Shown here: positions 13,131-22,776 of the stretch, piece by piece
Position numbering within the stretch: the first letter of the stretch is position 1
Layout: the number at the start of each line of letters is the position of its first letter
Assembly (NCBI GenBank): GCA_943349825.1
Contig: CALQZQ010000008.1
Location: forward strand, 1-40,680
Direction: 5' to 3'
Length of the DNA stretch: 40,680 nucleotides
Source: Candidatus Peribacteria bacterium
GTDB taxonomy: Bacteria > Patescibacteriota > Gracilibacteria > UBA1369 > 2-02-FULL-48-14
Notes under the pieces: model-generated
What the model saw: the letters and a program-made list of their open reading frames with translations, nothing else
Database searches by the model: none
What the model was told of the DNA's origin: nothing
Translations under genes and position numbers: made by a program

Positions 13131-13159
13131 AATTTAACACTATTTCTTTATAGTGTCAA
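13131..13159 (-). promoter_or_regulatory. strong promoter of the lipoprotein gene with dyad in the spacer
   Basis: On the minus strand a consensus -35 TTGACA (13154-13159) is 17 nt from TAAATT (13131-13136). A perfect 7-bp inverted repeat ACACTAT-N6-ATAGTGT (13137-13156) fills the spacer and overlaps the stop codon of the GT4 gene. It looks like an operator placed to block polymerase. Confidence 0.65.
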
Positions 13160-14260
13160 TAGGCGCTCAAACGCCTCCACCATTTTTTCTACATCGTAAT
13201 GCTCCGTCGCAAAACGCTTCCCCGCGGCAGCCAACTTTTTACGAAGCGGCGCGTCTTTCATCAGTCGTTTGATTCCCTTGTCGATTTCCCGGAAATTCGG
13301 CGCCGCCACCCACGCATGTTCGCCGTGCCGAAGGTCCGCGGCAATACCGCACACGTCCGTCACCAGCACCGCCGTTCCCATCATCATCGCCTCCGCGGCC
13401 ACCATGCCAAAAGGATCCATTTCTCGCGAAGGCAAAACCACCAAATCCGCGCGCTTCAAAAGCTCCATGATTTGTCCACGCGGGAGACTCGACAGCAGTC
13501 GAACCGACCCCCCTTTCGCCGCCTTTTCCAGCCGCGCCTGCAGCGGCCCCTGTCCTACTAAAACGAGCCTCATTTCAGGTTTGGAGTGGACAGCGTGGAC
13601 AAGAATGTCCACTCCCTTGTCGACTGTCAAACGCGCCACGCACACCACCGAAAATCCACTGTCCATGAAGGCCACCAACTCGCTAGGCAAGGGCTCCGAT
13701 TTTTCCACCAAAGCCGCACACGGAATCGCCAAAACGTGGGGCACAAAAGGGCGCAAAATTTTCGCCATCGCGTGCGAAGTCACCACCACGGAAACGCGCC
13801 GAGCCAGTCGGCAGTACACGCCCCGCCACGGATTTTTCACGAACCATTTTCCAATGCGCGCGTGCTCCACCCACACCACTTTCATGTTCCAAAAAAGCGC
13901 CCATGGCGTCATCAAAAGTTTCTCCCCAAACGAATGCATGTACACGGTGTTCGCCCCCCATTTTCGTCGTGCCCAGCGCAGCAGCAATCCCGCCCTCACC
14001 CACAGCAACGGACTCAAAAGCGTGAACAAAACCAGCCACACCTTCGTCACCGGAGGCTTCCCCAGCCAGGCCTTGCGCACTTCAAAATGCCGCGCCTTGA
14101 ATTCGCGCAGCAGCACACCGCAGCTCCCCATAAAAAAACTCGCCACACCGCGTTCGTCCAAGGCTTCCATCAGTTCCAGCGTGTGCAATTCCTCTCCCCC
14201 AAACTGGCTTTCATAGGGAAATCGGGTGACAAGAATTCGAGCTTTAGGTACAGTAGGCAC
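13148..14260 (-). CDS. glycosyltransferase family 4 protein
   Basis: A 370-residue GT-B glycosyltransferase. Marks include FPYESQFGGEELHTLEL near the N-terminus, VCVARLTVDKGVDILVHAV, LVLVGQGPLQARLEKAA and the donor-site PSREMDPFGMVAAEAMMMGTAVLVTDVCG. A hydrophobic segment around residues 70-95 (VWLVLFTLLSPLLWVRAGLLL) may touch the membrane. The start codon lies only 5 bp from the divergent nadK start, so each promoter must lie within the other gene. It likely takes part in envelope glycan or S-layer glycosylation, but no direct evidence shows the substrate. Confidence 0.87.
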   Translation of the reverse strand: MPTVPKARILVTRFPYESQFGGEELHTLELMEALDERGVASFFMGSCGVLLREFKARHFEVRKAWLGKPPVTKVWLVLFTLLSPLLWVRAGLLLRWARRKWGANTVYMHSFGEKLLMTPWALFWNMKVVWVEHARIGKWFVKNPWRGVYCRLARRVSVVVTSHAMAKILRPFVPHVLAIPCAALVEKSEPLPSELVAFMDSGFSVVCVARLTVDKGVDILVHAVHSKPEMRLVLVGQGPLQARLEKAAKGGSVRLLSSLPRGQIMELLKRADLVVLPSREMDPFGMVAAEAMMMGTAVLVTDVCGIAADLRHGEHAWVAAPNFREIDKGIKRLMKDAPLRKKLAAAGKRFATEHYDVEKMVEAFERLLTL

Positions 14261-18099: not shown

Positions 18100-18134
18100 T
18101 GGACAGGATAGACAGCTTGGACAGCAGTGTCTAC
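18100..18134. repeat. tandem RGACAG words between gdh and ppdK
   Basis: GGACAG, AGACAG and GGACAG recur at exactly 9-bp steps (from 18101, 18110 and 18119; the first as TGGACAGG), followed by the inverted word TGTCTA (18128-18133). Similar TRGACA/TGTCYA words lie in the gaps at 22926-22950 and 23131-23152. A protein-binding site is possible; no function is shown. Confidence 0.45.
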
Positions 18135-19390
18135 TCAATGCCGCGACGCCATTTCAAAGCGTCTGCCAGACGGCGCAACGCAGAAATGAACGCCGCTTCA
18201 CGGTAGGTGCAGTTGTATTTCTTTTGATTCGCAGAAATGTCCATCCAGGCCTTCACCATGATGGGCTTGAGCTTGGCCTGAACTTCCTCCGCGGACCAAT
18301 AGTAATTCGCTTCATTTTGCACGAGTTCAAAGTAGCTCACCGTCACGCCTCCGGCATTCGCCAGAATATCCGGAATCACGGGCACGCCCATCCCTTTCAA
18401 AATTTCATCCGCCTCCGGCGTGACTGGTCCGTTGGCCAACTCCAAAATCATTCTCGCCTTCACGTTCGCTGCATTTTCTTGCGTCACTTGGTTTTCCAAA
18501 GCGGACAGCACCAAAATGTCACAGTCCAGAGCCAGCAGTTCCACATTGCTCACCACGGAGCACGCCGCGCCGCCGATTCCGGCATTGGTGCACAGCGCCA
18601 CCTCGCCTTTCTCCGCCTTGCCGGCCATCACTGTAGGAATGTCGAGTCCCCCGGCGCAGAACACCCCGTTCTTAGAATCGGACACCGCAATCACGCTCAT
18701 GCCCGCTTCCTGAGCGAATTTCGCCATAAAGGAACCGGCATTTCCAAAGCCTTGCACCGCCACGCGGAGTCCCGCAGGGGCCACGCCACGTTCTTTCAAG
18801 TATTCCATGAGCACATGCATTCCACCCATGCTCGTCGCGGTGTCGCGCCCCTCGCTGCCCCCCATGGCCAGCGCCTTTCCGGTGACTACTCCAAGCACGT
18901 TTTCTCCCTTAATTTTTGAGTACTCGTCGGCTATCCAACCCATGATTTGAGCGTTGGTGTAGACATCCGGCGCAGGGATGTCCATTTTAGGTCCAATAAA
19001 CGGAGTAATGGCCCTGGCATATTCTCGAGTCATAGCTTCGAGTTCACGAGGCGAAAGTTTCTTAGAATCGACAATAATTCCTCCCTTACCTCCACCGAGT
19101 GGAATACCCACCACGGCACATTTCATAGTCATCCACGCGGACAGCGCTTTCACTTCGCCCAGGTCCACATCCGGGTGGAAACGAATTCCTCCTTTGTATG
19201 GGCCACGCAGGCTGTTGTGCTGGCAGCGGTATCCTTGAAACACACGCACCGTGCCATCGTCCATTTTCACAGGCACGCTGACTTCCAAAATGCGTTCGTG
19301 ACGGCTGAGCACTTCGCGGGCATTGGCAGAAAGACCCATCAAGTCCGATGCCTTGCGGATTTGAGCGAGGGTATTTTCGAAGAGGGACAT
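18131..19390 (-). CDS. gdhA: glutamate dehydrogenase (Glu/Leu/Phe/Val dehydrogenase family)
   Basis: A 419-residue dehydrogenase. The substrate-binding part has RGPYKGGIRFHPDVDLGEVKALS and MTMKCAVVGIPLGGGKGG (catalytic Lys residues). Then comes the PAPDVYTNAQIMGW segment and the Rossmann domain with VAVQGFGNAGSFMAKF. Size and motifs fit a hexameric glutamate dehydrogenase that interconverts glutamate with 2-oxoglutarate and ammonia. Coenzyme preference cannot be read safely. It is first in a probable unit with ppdK, linking nitrogen and three-carbon metabolism. A clear promoter lies 26 bp upstream. Confidence 0.93.
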   Translation of the reverse strand: MSLFENTLAQIRKASDLMGLSANAREVLSRHERILEVSVPVKMDDGTVRVFQGYRCQHNSLRGPYKGGIRFHPDVDLGEVKALSAWMTMKCAVVGIPLGGGKGGIIVDSKKLSPRELEAMTREYARAITPFIGPKMDIPAPDVYTNAQIMGWIADEYSKIKGENVLGVVTGKALAMGGSEGRDTATSMGGMHVLMEYLKERGVAPAGLRVAVQGFGNAGSFMAKFAQEAGMSVIAVSDSKNGVFCAGGLDIPTVMAGKAEKGEVALCTNAGIGGAACSVVSNVELLALDCDILVLSALENQVTQENAANVKARMILELANGPVTPEADEILKGMGVPVIPDILANAGGVTVSYFELVQNEANYYWSAEEVQAKLKPIMVKAWMDISANQKKYNCTYREAAFISALRRLADALKWRRGIE

Positions 19391-19415: not shown

Positions 19416-19444
19416 AGTCTATGTCGCGATTAGTCGCTCTGCAA
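19416..19444 (-). promoter_or_regulatory. gdh promoter
   Basis: On the minus strand TTGCAG (19439-19444) and TAGACT (19416-19421) are 17 nt apart, giving a leader of about 20 nt. The -35 lies in the 3' end of the HTH gene. The same TAGACT -10 is seen at 11398-11403. Confidence 0.65.
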
Positions 19445-19957
19445 GCCCATTTTTTTCAAAATCCACGCAAAAATCGACTTTGGCTTCGCCCGCTCCTCAC
19501 GGAGTTCCGCTTGCAGAGCTTCCAAAATATGGATGAGCAGCATTTTCTCACGGTGGCCGTTTTCCAAAAGCTGTCTAAATTCTTCATGTTCCGTCTGTCT
19601 AGACTGCGGCTCCAAAACGTAAAAATCATTTTCCAAATAGGAATCCACATCGGCCTGAGTCACCAGCGCCTCCTCACGCGTGTCTAGTTGACTAGTCAAA
19701 ACCTGCACAGGCGCTTGCTCAAGCCTTTCTTCCGCCACATGGATAGGCGATTGCACAGCCGTTTGTCTAGGCGATTCTTGCACCGAAAGGGAAGGGGCAT
19801 AGGGGATTTGTTCACGATAAATACCATACTGAAAGCCCTGCGCCGTTCGTATCCTTTGAGCCTTCAGATCACCTTTCTTGATCATACGACGAATCGTCTG
19901 GGTAGACTTTCCCAGTAGCTCCGCGACTTCCTGCAATGTCAGTACGTCTTGGCCCAT
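19430..19957 (-). CDS. HTH_17 (MerR/excisionase-like) DNA-binding protein
   Basis: A 175-residue protein. The N-terminus (1-45) is a winged helix-turn-helix of the excisionase/MerR type: LTLQEVAELLGKSTQTIRRMIKKGDLKAQR. A polar Gln/Ser/Pro linker (about 55-110) follows, then a helical, probably coiled-coil C-terminus (EEFRQLLENGHREKMLLIHILEALQAELREE) ending in a basic amphipathic tail. The architecture suggests a dimeric DNA-binding protein. The gene itself and its upstream region contain GACTAGTC palindromes, and a 16-bp palindrome covers its promoter, so autoregulation is likely. The target is unknown. Confidence 0.75.
   Translation of the reverse strand: MGQDVLTLQEVAELLGKSTQTIRRMIKKGDLKAQRIRTAQGFQYGIYREQIPYAPSLSVQESPRQTAVQSPIHVAEERLEQAPVQVLTSQLDTREEALVTQADVDSYLENDFYVLEPQSRQTEHEEFRQLLENGHREKMLLIHILEALQAELREERAKPKSIFAWILKKMGLQSD
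19688..19699. repeat. TTGACTAGTCAA palindrome inside the HTH gene
   Basis: A perfect 12-bp palindrome. It is one of four GACTAGTC copies in 1.3 kb (others 20021-20028, 20128-20135, 21000-21007). It is preceded by TCTAGT four bases before, so two CTAG words are close together. Confidence 0.7.
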
Positions 19958-19966
19958 ATTCCTTTA

Positions 19967-19982
19967 TATACACATGTGTATA
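19967..19982. promoter_or_regulatory. 16-bp palindrome upstream of the HTH gene
   Basis: TATACACATGTGTATA is a perfect palindrome 10 bp before the ATG. It contains a -10-like TATACA; TTTACT lies 17 nt further upstream on the minus strand. A second -10 candidate, TAAAAT (19987-19992), is adjacent. Best read as an autoregulatory operator. Confidence 0.6.
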
Positions 19983-20188
19983 GGCGATTTTAGGCTTACA
20001 GTAAAGCAAAAAGCAAGTTTGACTAGTCAGAGTCACGCAACATATGACTACCCTAATGTTGACTAACCAACACTCGACTAATCAACTAATCAAAATAAAA
20101 ACTTAACCAGAAAAAGTGCATAACTACGACTAGTCAAAAGGGAAGTGGTGACTAGTTGACGAACACGCGGCTACCCACAAAAACTCCC

Positions 20189-20211
20189 TCGCATTTTTCC
20201 CAAAAATGCGA
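20189..20211. repeat. 10-bp perfect hairpin
   Basis: TCGCATTTTT-CCC-AAAAATGCGA. No T tract follows on either strand, so it is not a classical terminator. It sits 10 bp before the next promoter's -35. Confidence 0.6.
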
Positions 20212-20220
20212 AACCGCCTT

Positions 20221-20248
20221 TTGCATCTTTTTCAATCTTTGCTAATAT
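20221..20248 (+). promoter_or_regulatory. promoter of the 183-aa membrane protein, probably leaderless
   Basis: TTGCAT (20221-20226), 16 nt, then TGC-TAATAT (-10 at 20243-20248). The ATG at 20256 begins 8 bp after the -10, about where transcription should start. Confidence 0.6.
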
Positions 20249-20255
20249 CAGATCC

Positions 20256-20807
20256 ATGGAAAACATACGCCTCTCCTGGGACCTCTTCGTACTCGTCTTT
20301 TTCTCCGTAGTGATTGCCTACAGCTTCATTGTAGGTCGCAACCAAACCATCAAAATCATCATCGCCTCCTACATGGCCATCCTCTCGGCCGACGGCCTGG
20401 GGAATCTTTTTGAAAAGTACATTCTTCCCTCGGCGCCCACGCTCCAGGGGGACAATGGCATTCAGGCGCTCGTCCTCATGAAGATTTTCGTTTACGTGCT
20501 CGTCATCGTGCTGCTGGCCATCCGCGGCGGCTTCCGCGTCGACATTCTCCCCGAAAACTCCGCGGTCACGCGCATCCTGGCCAACCTCAGTTTCGGCTTC
20601 CTCAATGCCGGCCTCATGGTCTCCACCTTGCTCGTTTACCTCACGGGCGGCTCCTTCGTGATGGGCACGGTACAAGCCGGCCTCCACACCAATCTTTACA
20701 GCGAATCCCAATTCATCAAAGCCATCGTCGACCACTACGACATCTGGTTTTCTCTGCCCGCCGTTTCCCTGGTACTCGTGAGTTTTTTCCAGCCGGTGGA
20801 AGAATAA
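20256..20807 (+). CDS. unknown integral membrane protein
   Basis: A 183-residue protein with about four membrane segments (about 9-27, 33-50, 70-90, 108-130) and a final hydrophobic stretch near 163-178. It slightly resembles CvpA-type proteins in layout (short helices and an RNQTIKI loop), but I see no firm motif, so no family is assigned. Its promoter appears to place the transcript start on the ATG. tRNA-Lys follows with its own promoter 2 bp after the stop. Confidence 0.7.
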   Translation: MENIRLSWDLFVLVFFSVVIAYSFIVGRNQTIKIIIASYMAILSADGLGNLFEKYILPSAPTLQGDNGIQALVLMKIFVYVLVIVLLAIRGGFRVDILPENSAVTRILANLSFGFLNAGLMVSTLLVYLTGGSFVMGTVQAGLHTNLYSESQFIKAIVDHYDIWFSLPAVSLVLVSFFQPVEE

Positions 20808-20808
20808 C

Positions 20809-20837
20809 TTGCCAGGGGAGGGGACTGTGCCTAAAAT
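20809..20837 (+). promoter_or_regulatory. tRNA-Lys promoter
   Basis: TTGCCA (20809-20814), 17 nt, TAAAAT (20832-20837). Transcription should start about 4 nt before the mature tRNA end. Confidence 0.75.
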
Positions 20838-20847
20838 ACGCCCACGT

Positions 20848-20923
20848 GGGTCAGTAGCTCAGTTGGTAGAGCAACAGCCTTTTAAGCTGATGGTCCCGGG
20901 TTCAAATCCCGGCTGACCCACCA
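20848..20923 (+). tRNA. tRNA-Lys (anticodon TTT)
   Basis: A 76-nt tRNA including an encoded CCA. The acceptor stem GGGTCAG / CTGACCC, D-arm GCTC/GAGC with AGTTGGTA, anticodon loop CTTTTAA and T-arm CCGGG-TTCAAAT-CCCGG fold cleanly. The anticodon TTT reads Lys AAA/AAG. The top pair of the anticodon stem is an A-A mismatch. Confidence 0.97.
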
Positions 20924-20925
20924 CC

Positions 20926-20946
20926 ACTCGCCTCAGGCGAGTCTTT
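20926..20946 (+). terminator. hairpin after tRNA-Lys, weak terminator
   Basis: A perfect 7-bp stem ACTCGCC-TCA-GGCGAGT followed by CTTT. The T run is short, so it may be a processing or partial termination signal; a stronger one lies 27 bp on. Confidence 0.55.
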
Positions 20947-20972
20947 AGTTATCCACAAAACTCGACACAGCC

Positions 20973-20999
20973 GCTTGTCTCACCAGACAGCCTTTTTTT
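20973..20999 (+). terminator. second terminator after tRNA-Lys
   Basis: The stem GC(T)TGTCT / AGACAGC with a CACC loop and one bulged T is followed by seven T. It ends directly at a GACTAGTC palindrome (21000-21007). Confidence 0.65.
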
Positions 21000-21007
21000 G
21001 ACTAGTC
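21000..21007. repeat. GACTAGTC palindrome after the tRNA terminator
   Basis: The fourth perfect copy of the palindrome, in the wider TGACTAGTCA. A related TTGATTAACTAA begins at 21013. Confidence 0.65.
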
Positions 21008-21082
21008 ACCAGGTTGATTAACTAAGCACCGCCTCCCAAAAACGCCCCCGTAGTTTTCCACAAGTGCTCCACAATGCCACGC

Positions 21083-21117: not shown

Positions 21118-21366
21118 ATGATACAAGATTTTCTAAACACATACTTGGCAAAAGCAAAGTATGAAATGATCGACGATGGGAAAAACTTTTACGCACAAAT
21201 TTCCTCTCTTCGTGGAGTGTGGGCTACCGGAAAAACCCTTGAAGAATGTAGAGCGAACTTGGTTTCCAGCCTTGAGGGATGGTTGATCTTTCGCTTACGC
21301 AACAAGCTTCCGGTGCCAAACTTTAAAGTCCCGAGCAAAATAGAGTTTCCAAAAACCTATGCCTAA
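21118..21366 (+). CDS. hicB: HicB family antitoxin
   Basis: An 82-residue HicB-type protein with the RNase-H-like core YEMIDDGKNFYAQISSLRGVWATGKTLEECRANLVSSLEGWL. There is no separate DNA-binding domain at the C-terminus, so it is a minimal HicB. It precedes hicA and overlaps it by 8 bp, so antitoxin is made first. HicB blocks the HicA active site. Confidence 0.87.
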   Translation: MIQDFLNTYLAKAKYEMIDDGKNFYAQISSLRGVWATGKTLEECRANLVSSLEGWLIFRLRNKLPVPNFKVPSKIEFPKTYA

Positions 21367-21593: not shown

Positions 21594-22736
21594 CTAGAAA
21601 ATCCCAAAGCCCTTATTCACCTCCAAGCCCGCCTCGGTCGCCAACTGCTCGTAAAGCTCCTTTTCCTTTCGAGTCATTTTTTCCGGCACCTTCACTTGAA
21701 TGGTAACCAAGTGATCACCCATGGCGTCGGACTTCAGCGAGGGAGCTCCTTTGCCCTTCAGGGTGAACTCGGCGCCCGGCTGAGTTCCCGCAGGCACCTT
21801 CAAAGCCACTTTTCCATGAATTGTGTCGATTTTCACACTCGCCCCCAAAACCGCCTGGAGTAGGGGAAGGGTCTCCACAGAAAATATAGTTCGCCCCTCG
21901 CGCGAAAACTTTGGATGAGGGCTCACATGGATGTGCAGGAACAAGTCTCCATATTCTCCGCCAAAAGTTCCGGCCGCCCCGCGTCCTTTCACACGAATCG
22001 TCGTTCCGCCCTCAATCCCCTTAGGAATGGCCACTTCCACTTCTTCAGCCTGCTTCACGCGGGTTTGCCCCTTACACACACTGCACACCTTTTCCGGAAT
22101 TTCTCCGCGCCCTTCACACTTCGAACACACTTGCACGCTGCTGATGCTGCCCAAAAGCGACTGCCGCGTCACCCGCACCTGTCCCTGTCCGTTACACTGC
22201 GAGCACGTGCTGACCTTTGTGCCTGGCTCATTGCCTTTTCCGGAGCAATGCGCACACACCATTGGTTTGGTAACTTCCAGGTGCTTCACCGTACCAAACA
22301 CGGCCTCCTCAAACTTAATCGTGATCTCCGTTTCGATGTCGCGCCCACGCTCCGGACCTTTTTTCCGCGAACCTCCTTGTTGTGACCCGCCAAATCCGTT
22401 GCCTCCAAAGAAACTCTCAAAAATATCAGCGAAATTGCCAAAGTCGTTCGGATTGAAGCCTGGCGCGCCACCTTGACCACCACCTCCACCGCCAAAATCT
22501 TGGCCACCTCCGGCGAAACCGGCCCCCGCAGCGCCATAGCGATCGAAGCCCGCCCGTTTTTGCGGATCGGAAAGCACTTCGTAAGCCTCTTGGACTTCCT
22601 TGAATTGCTTCTCAGCTTCTTTATTGCCCGGGTTTTTGTCGGGGTGGTGCTCCTGCGCTTTCTTTCGATACGCCTTTTTAATATCGGTCTCGTTGGCATC
22701 TTTGGAGACCCCTAATGTGGAATAGTAATCGGCCAT
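21594..22736 (-). CDS. dnaJ: chaperone DnaJ
   Basis: A 380-residue type I DnaJ. The J domain has [24 protein letters not shown] and the HPD motif (EHHPDKN). A Gly/Phe-rich region follows (about 75-115), then the zinc region with four Cys repeats: [24 protein letters not shown] and CSVCKGQT. The last lacks the usual GxG end. The C-terminal substrate-binding domains follow. It stimulates DnaK. I start at the [10 protein letters not shown] Met; an ATG 3 codons earlier is possible. Confidence 0.95.
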
Positions 22737-22776
22737 GCCTAACATCCTAGTGAAAATTGCAATTTAAGCAATAAGT

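Follow-up and report, generated by a model that had tools for sequence, protein, structure and literature searches.

What would a bacterium keep a tight cluster of one palindromic DNA word for, and which protein would read it? This question is raised by a stretch of 40,680 nucleotides from a Candidatus Peribacteria bacterium (the window), which is all of contig C8 in a genome of 1,246,678 bases (12 contigs; completeness 98.8%). A sequence-only reading of the window had noted four perfect copies of GACTAGTC around a small helix-turn-helix (HTH) gene and had proposed either an autoregulatory array or a chromosome-organising site with its cognate binder. We found that the words accompany this gene in related genomes and that they extend into its coding sequence. 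The reading that we favour, with a probability of roughly 0.45, is an autoregulated, centromere-like or membrane-anchoring array and its binder.

The four copies (19690, 20021, 20128 and 21000) were located exactly as claimed. They are the only ones in the genome, all inside this 1.3 kb, so the word is not evenly common; the reversed-letter control occurs 13 times. By our own arithmetic, the chance of four random copies sharing one 1.32 kb stretch is ~5e-9. Among the reported near copies, that at 20149 corresponds to GACTAGTT at 20150 and that at 20059 to GACTAACC at 20061, while the one at 21013 is GATTAACT at 21016, which scored 3.8 under the motif model described below and belongs to the background. 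The near copy GACTAATC at 20076 was missing from the earlier list. Of the extra CTAG words, the one at 19767, in GTCTAGGC, looks like a diverged member of the array because its spacing is common to in-gene sites of relatives; that at 19599 lies in GTCTAGAC, and that at 19684 could not be assigned.

A position-specific motif model was trained on 62 sites taken from other genomes, each at the homologous gene, with the window's own genome excluded. Its ranks 1 to 8 in the 40.68 kb all fell in the array. In 30 Markov control sequences, the best score averaged 12.0 and reached 17.7, and three window hits (21.8, 19.9 and 18.8) lay above every control. The weaker array members count only through their cluster position, because their scores fall inside the control range. 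The sites are listed below together with copies of a second word, the non-palindromic TGTATAGKCG (reverse, CGMCTATACA), which shares arrays with the palindrome.

19428–19435, no strand: weak site GATTAGTC over the HTH stop codon; rank 8, inside the Markov control range
19430–19957, minus strand: gene of the HTH protein, 175 amino acids; PF12728 (HTH_17) at 38.1 bits against a cut-off of 27, as the sequence-only reading had assigned it
19597–19604, no strand: GTCTAGAC, possible diverged in-gene site
19688–19699, no strand: site TTGACTAGTCAA in the HTH gene, encoding Leu-Thr-Ser-Gln of the linker; rank 1
19740–19776, plus strand: two diverged second-variant copies in the gene, TGGATAGGCGATT and TGTCTAGGCGATT (family D6)
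19977–19986, plus strand: second variant TGTATAGGCG, directly upstream of the HTH start, the sole TGTATAGKCG of the genome
20019–20030, no strand: site TTGACTAGTCAG, upstream of the HTH gene; rank 3
20061–20068, no strand: diverged site GACTAACC; rank 6, score inside the Markov control range
20076–20091, no strand: adjoining pair GACTAATC (20076) and AACTAATC (20084); ranks 5 and 7
20128–20135, no strand: site GACTAGTC; rank 4
20150–20157, no strand: near site GACTAGTT; rank 10
20848–20923: tRNA-Lys gene
21000–21007, no strand: site GACTAGTC, ~1.04 kb before the HTH start codon; rank 2

The last of these bears out the remark that the sites continue past the tRNA-Lys gene. By eye, we also observed a perfect 16-base palindrome, TATACACATGTGTATA, at 19967–19982, which lies 10–25 bases before the HTH start codon and overlaps TGTATAGGCG.

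The palindrome and the second variant have a common frame, GNCTANNC. In the six genomes of the family to which the window belongs (G000–G005), the array zones held 25 copies of GACTAGTC, 24 of GCCTATAC and 11 of GACTATAC, against 2, 0 and 2 in the other 116 kb. Altogether, 102 GNCTANNC words lay in the zones vs 7.5 expected; each genome had 12–22 vs ~1.3 expected, a figure that includes background and some double-strand counts. The first zone consists of the HTH gene and its upstream region, and the second lies 2.3–3.1 kb upstream, before dnaJ. This dnaJ-side array was clear in four of the six genomes (G002, G003, G004 and G005) and was not recognisable in the window's own genome. By our count, 34 of 41 copies of TGTATAGKCG were at the locus (12/14 in G005, 8/9 in G003, 7/7 in G004, 5/8 in G002, 1/2 in G001 and 1/1 in G000). 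In G005, GAYTARTC was absent within 600 bases of the HTH gene. As for sites away from the locus, 46 of the 51 that we inspected in seven genomes lay within called open frames (our count; 8/14 sites for G014).

The HTH gene itself is a regular component of these genomes. Homologues were present in 52 of 59 Ca. Peregrinibacteria-type genomes; the raw count was 53, but the G028 match is a different HTH protein and was also removed from the site counts. Six genomes had no match, and the site-near-gene counts cover the remaining ones. The relatives' counts for homologues, and for the ParB_N and ScpB searches given below, include the window's own genome. Among 192 genomes spread over the phylum, matches with E < 1e-20 were found in eight genomes of the same order only, and those elsewhere were weaker (best 1e-9).

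Related words are kept beside the gene in these relatives, a check that the sequence-only reading had proposed. Within 3 kb of the HTH gene, YYGAYTARTCRR occurs 67 times vs 1.55 expected from the genome totals, with 26 of the 52 genomes contributing; near-gene copies account for 9/9 in G002, 7/7 in G003, 9/11 in G004 and 3/3 in the window's own genome. The degenerate form GAYTARTC was found 71 times in the 74.7 kb within 600 bases of the gene (27 of 52 loci) and 90 times in 771 kb far from it, and no other 8-base palindrome with up to one degenerate (Y/R) pair was as significantly enriched. The sequence-only reading had proposed two refutations, an equally common word and a word that is not conserved near orthologues. 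Because both fail, there is good support for a putative cognate binder that has an array of sites of its own, and either of the two proposed roles would be compatible with these results.

The presence of the palindrome also follows one residue of the protein. GAYTARTC lay near the gene in 21 of 26 genomes with Met or Leu at residue 25, which is part of the recognition helix, and in 5 of 23 with Ala (four unclassified; 22/27 and 5/24 under laxer classing); Fisher's test gave 4.8e-5, a value that ignores kinship. In 13 of 20 Ala-type genomes that lack the palindrome, TTGANTANYCAA was found upstream of the gene, with 20 copies near it (8.9 kb) against 3 far from it (300 kb), a significance that is overstated because the variant was picked after viewing the sequences. 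The other seven had no TTGANTANYCAA near the gene, and a search for spaced half-sites in Ala-type genomes gave weak matches only. Genome-wide, YYGAYTARTCRR numbered 312 against 101 for its reversed control in the 52 genomes, and forward counts of TTGANTANYCAA beat the control in 12 of 13 genomes, with G053 equal, both among the matches listed. We give this excess little weight because a reversed word controls poorly for words that lie in frame. From the local counts, we infer that a protein–operator pair has probably been kept in most of the order while its word drifted.

The sites inside the coding sequence constitute a further line of evidence. They lie in a disordered linker with a common spacing of 24, 51 or 21 bases or sums of these (G000, G003, G004 and G005); in the window, TGGATAGGCGATT and TGTCTAGGCGATT are 24 bases apart, followed by 51 bases to the 19690 site, which matches the relatives. 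The palindrome can be read solely as NNG AYT ART CNN because stops occur in the other frames. Of the LTSQ-type peptides in HTH frames, 18 of 23 were encoded by the DNA word, as compared with 19 of 89 in other frames; the frames ran from the first possible start, so that at least four of the 18 (G013, G014, G015 and G026) precede the likely start, as do two (G019 and G041) among the five others. With these parts removed, the count was 14 of 17. SPIQ-type peptides followed the second variant in 5 of 5 cases vs 0 of 6, in a test that allowed a looser word chosen after looking. The peptides vary with the DNA variant (LTSQ, LTNQ, LINQ and PTSQ), and the codons track the word. We read this codon pattern as selection that probably acts on the DNA and not on the peptide. 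On this reading, DNA-binding sites would apparently limit how the sequence of a disordered linker can vary.

That the conservation instead resides in the peptides (LTSQ and SPIQ being important in the linker), or that the cluster arose by chance, we consider very improbable. The single readable frame does tie conservation of the peptide to that of the DNA. Nevertheless, the peptides shift with the DNA variants while the codons keep the word, and site density is higher in non-coding DNA (0.46 per kb) than in coding sequence (0.13 per kb), where in-gene density is inflated by the frame extension (the aligned gene holds 19 sites in 13 loci by our count). Chance is excluded in the window's own family by the genome-wide counts. 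Taken from association, covariation and codon choice, the view of the array as the probable target of the HTH protein is well supported.

The AlphaFold model of the HTH protein (mean pLDDT 74.9, pTM 0.35; 83–98 in the HTH and long-helix blocks) comprises a winged HTH at residues ~5–47, a low-confidence linker at ~51–100, a helix at 117–157 and a C-terminal helix at 162–169. The 41-residue helix 117–157 is a predicted coiled coil. The model and the fold comparisons agree on a MerR-type winged HTH at the N-terminus, a fold common to many regulators, and the protein also matched TIGR01764 (32.5 against a cut-off of 28.8). With a second structure aligner, the HTH was closest to BldC (6ama, Z 9.1) and Pukovnik Xis (4j2n, Z 8.0), followed by RacA (5i44, Z 6.1, rmsd 4.4 over 55 residues) and pSK1 Par (8csh, Z 5.8, rmsd 2.8 over 49 residues), where middling Z values can reflect a mere common arrangement. 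Each of the 51 tails had a Trp among its final 11 residues (9% of random 11-mers), G043, which has an internal stop in the frame, and G028 being excluded. These tails averaged a charge of +3.0 and a moment of 0.43, as compared with 0.0 and 0.28 in random 11-mers.

The reading that we favour, as deduced from these sequences, would make the locus a single-protein DNA-site system. The HTH protein would bind the interleaved words TTGACTAGTCAA and TTCGCCTATACA as an oligomer linked by its coiled coil and would repress its own promoter. Such autorepression is probable, because sites lie directly upstream of the gene in many relatives. A nucleoprotein cluster would then assemble on the array, and the aromatic basic tail would hold it, most likely at the membrane, so that the array would act as a centromere-like chromosome anchor with a presumed role in segregation. 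We lean towards an organising role because of the protein architecture, the sites within the coding sequence, the second array in four of the six genomes, the lack of an ScpB match and the minority occurrence of ParB_N. Profile searches gave no ScpB in any of the 59 genomes, whereas 11 of 14 control genomes had a match (SMC, ParA and MukB were not searched for); ParB_N matched in 11 of 59.

It is possible, with the odds somewhat against it, that an order of bacteria in the Candidate Phyla Radiation partitions or anchors its chromosome by one membrane-tethering protein whose centromere lies partly in the coding sequence of its own linker. Since the gene occurs in most sampled genomes of one order and comes with a defined DNA word and protein, the proposal can be tested in vitro without culture. 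If the segregation reading fails, a clean protein–operator pair remains, with a site that varies with the recognition helix.

Several results do not favour the array itself or weigh against a centromere-like anchor. At the level of the word, the array does not stand out by loose matching: with one mismatch allowed, the window had 11 matches vs 8.1 expected, which is uninformative alone, and 10 hits scored at least 7 under the motif model vs 5.4 expected. In many relatives, just one or two sites can be made out, at the promoter, which is what simple autorepression would give, and in Ala-type genomes TTGANTANYCAA is spread across many contigs, among the matches listed, instead of forming a local array. 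As regards position, the GC skew of the window is negative throughout and no skew switch coincides with the array in its contig; a sign change near the gene, noisy, was seen in two of seven contigs (G002 and G007). On the one 998 kb contig of G053, taken as circular, the HTH gene and dnaA are ~440 kb apart. In four genomes (G025, G030, G037 and G042), the ParB_N locus looks, by eye, like a ParB-type protein without a methyltransferase part; therefore, ParB-like proteins and the HTH gene coexist in some genomes. As regards the protein, Foldseek gave no PDB match for the model at E up to 0.001, and no DUF536, a domain of the segregation protein RocS, was found in the full Pfam table at E up to 5 (for 21 other HTH members, the table holds the best 25 of 64 families). 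The closest HTH folds are those of BldC and the phage excisionases (HTH_17). The tail moment of the window protein is 0.22, under the random mean of 0.28, and membrane binding by the tail is a guess from composition.

A strong rival, quite possible if short of probable, is that the HTH protein is a plain local autorepressor, with several operators for its own operon and perhaps for the divergent gene and dnaJ, in-gene sites that act as auxiliary operators or roadblocks, and no chromosome role. Sites directly upstream of the gene in many relatives, including the diverged copies (one or two each) of 13 of the 20 Ala-type genomes, are what it predicts, and the HTH fold resembles those of transcription factors such as BldC. 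The second group of sites stands before dnaJ and travels with dnaJ in G010. The autorepressor reading accounts less readily for the 12–22 GNCTANNC words per own-family genome, for the common spacing of sites within the coding sequence and for the location of 46 of the 51 off-locus sites in called frames, not promoters. The proximity to dnaJ could also point to an HspR-like heat-shock regulator that controls dnaJ and senses chaperones via its hydrophobic basic tail. In agreement with it, dnaJ is a frequent neighbour, sites lie ~100–650 bases upstream of dnaJ in several families, and the tail is aromatic and basic. Nevertheless, no further chaperone gene was seen by eye beside the 51 off-locus sites of seven genomes (no full regulon search was made), and the window's own genome lacks a clear site before dnaJ. 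We give a heat-shock regulon little weight because 46 of these 51 sites lie in frames of genes unrelated to chaperones, and we regard this reading as improbable.

The anchoring reading has its closest counterparts among DNA-tethering proteins of other bacteria. The centromere repeats of pSK1 Par lie upstream of its own gene, and RacA has a coiled coil and binds ram sites spread across a large origin region. The window sites differ from the dispersed ram sites in being packed at the gene. BldC and the excisionases are short proteins that lack a coiled coil and tail; BldC recognises direct repeats, whereas the main word of the window array is palindromic. According to two papers (PMC11500499, PMC13042908), RocS from Streptococcus pneumoniae is a small protein with an N-terminal HTH, a coiled coil and a C-terminal membrane-binding helix, which serves chromosome segregation in a setting in which ParABS and SMC are dispensable. 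The window protein is similarly predicted to have an HTH, a coiled coil and an aromatic basic tail. It differs in its Trp/Lys-rich tail, in the lack of a DUF536 match, in the array at its own gene as the main feature and in its phylum. As described in PMC11500499, DUF536 is part of RocS and is predicted in pSK1 Par, a staphylococcal single-protein partition system with a MerR-type winged HTH and a RocS-like C-terminus. The HTH fold of pSK1 Par (8csh) is comparable to that of the window protein. Par is plasmid-borne, unlike the gene in the window, and the PDB profile search (E up to 1) did not list it. Membership of the RocS/pSK1 Par group fails for the window protein because DUF536 is unmatched. 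The same source describes RacA from Bacillus subtilis as a chromosome-tethering protein with a MerR-type HTH (PMC11500499). The NCBIfam RacA model left the window protein unmatched at E up to 1 and matched one of 22 members (E 0.062). No ParB_N was found in the HTH protein in the Pfam table. By analogy, the system may work like RocS or pSK1 Par. In the literature consulted, which was largely open-access, we recognised no description of this protein or array in Peregrinibacteria.

The eight ParB_N loci fetched out of 11 gave readings for seven (G023 gave another frame). In G000, G004 and G016, a ParB_N-like domain is followed, by eye, by an apparent DNA methyltransferase, perhaps on a mobile element.

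We also observed an unusual skew in G053. In 21 of 21 sampled stretches, the GC skew was −0.25 to −0.39, with genes on both strands and no origin or terminus switch. This pattern may reflect one-directional replication. According to PMC7143001, a comparable pattern occurs in some Microgenomates, while complete Peregrinibacteria genomes are normal. In the genome of the window, sampled stretches hold one skew sign per contig (12 contigs, order not established). Short repeats near the replication origin are described for Ca. Peribacter riflensis in PMC4736985.

The genes around the array recur across loci, where dnaJ, the membrane-protein-like gene, glutamate dehydrogenase and a PEP-utilising enzyme are frequent neighbours. 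In the window, three of them are placed as follows.

18131–19390, minus strand: glutamate dehydrogenase gene, downstream neighbour; family at 33 of 53 loci
20256–20807, plus strand: divergent neighbour, 183 amino acids, without a Pfam match, hydrophobic and by eye resembling a membrane protein; family at 39 of 53 loci
21594–22745, minus strand: dnaJ; family at 35 of 53 loci

In G023, G042 and G052, a glycosyltransferase gene (family c6) holds three or four sites, which could possibly represent a third array; its homologue in the window (13148–14260) has no sites. Just past the 21000 site, a gene at 21118–21366 belongs to UPF0150 (PF21748), a family that we take to be HicB-like, and by eye a small HicA-like frame follows it.

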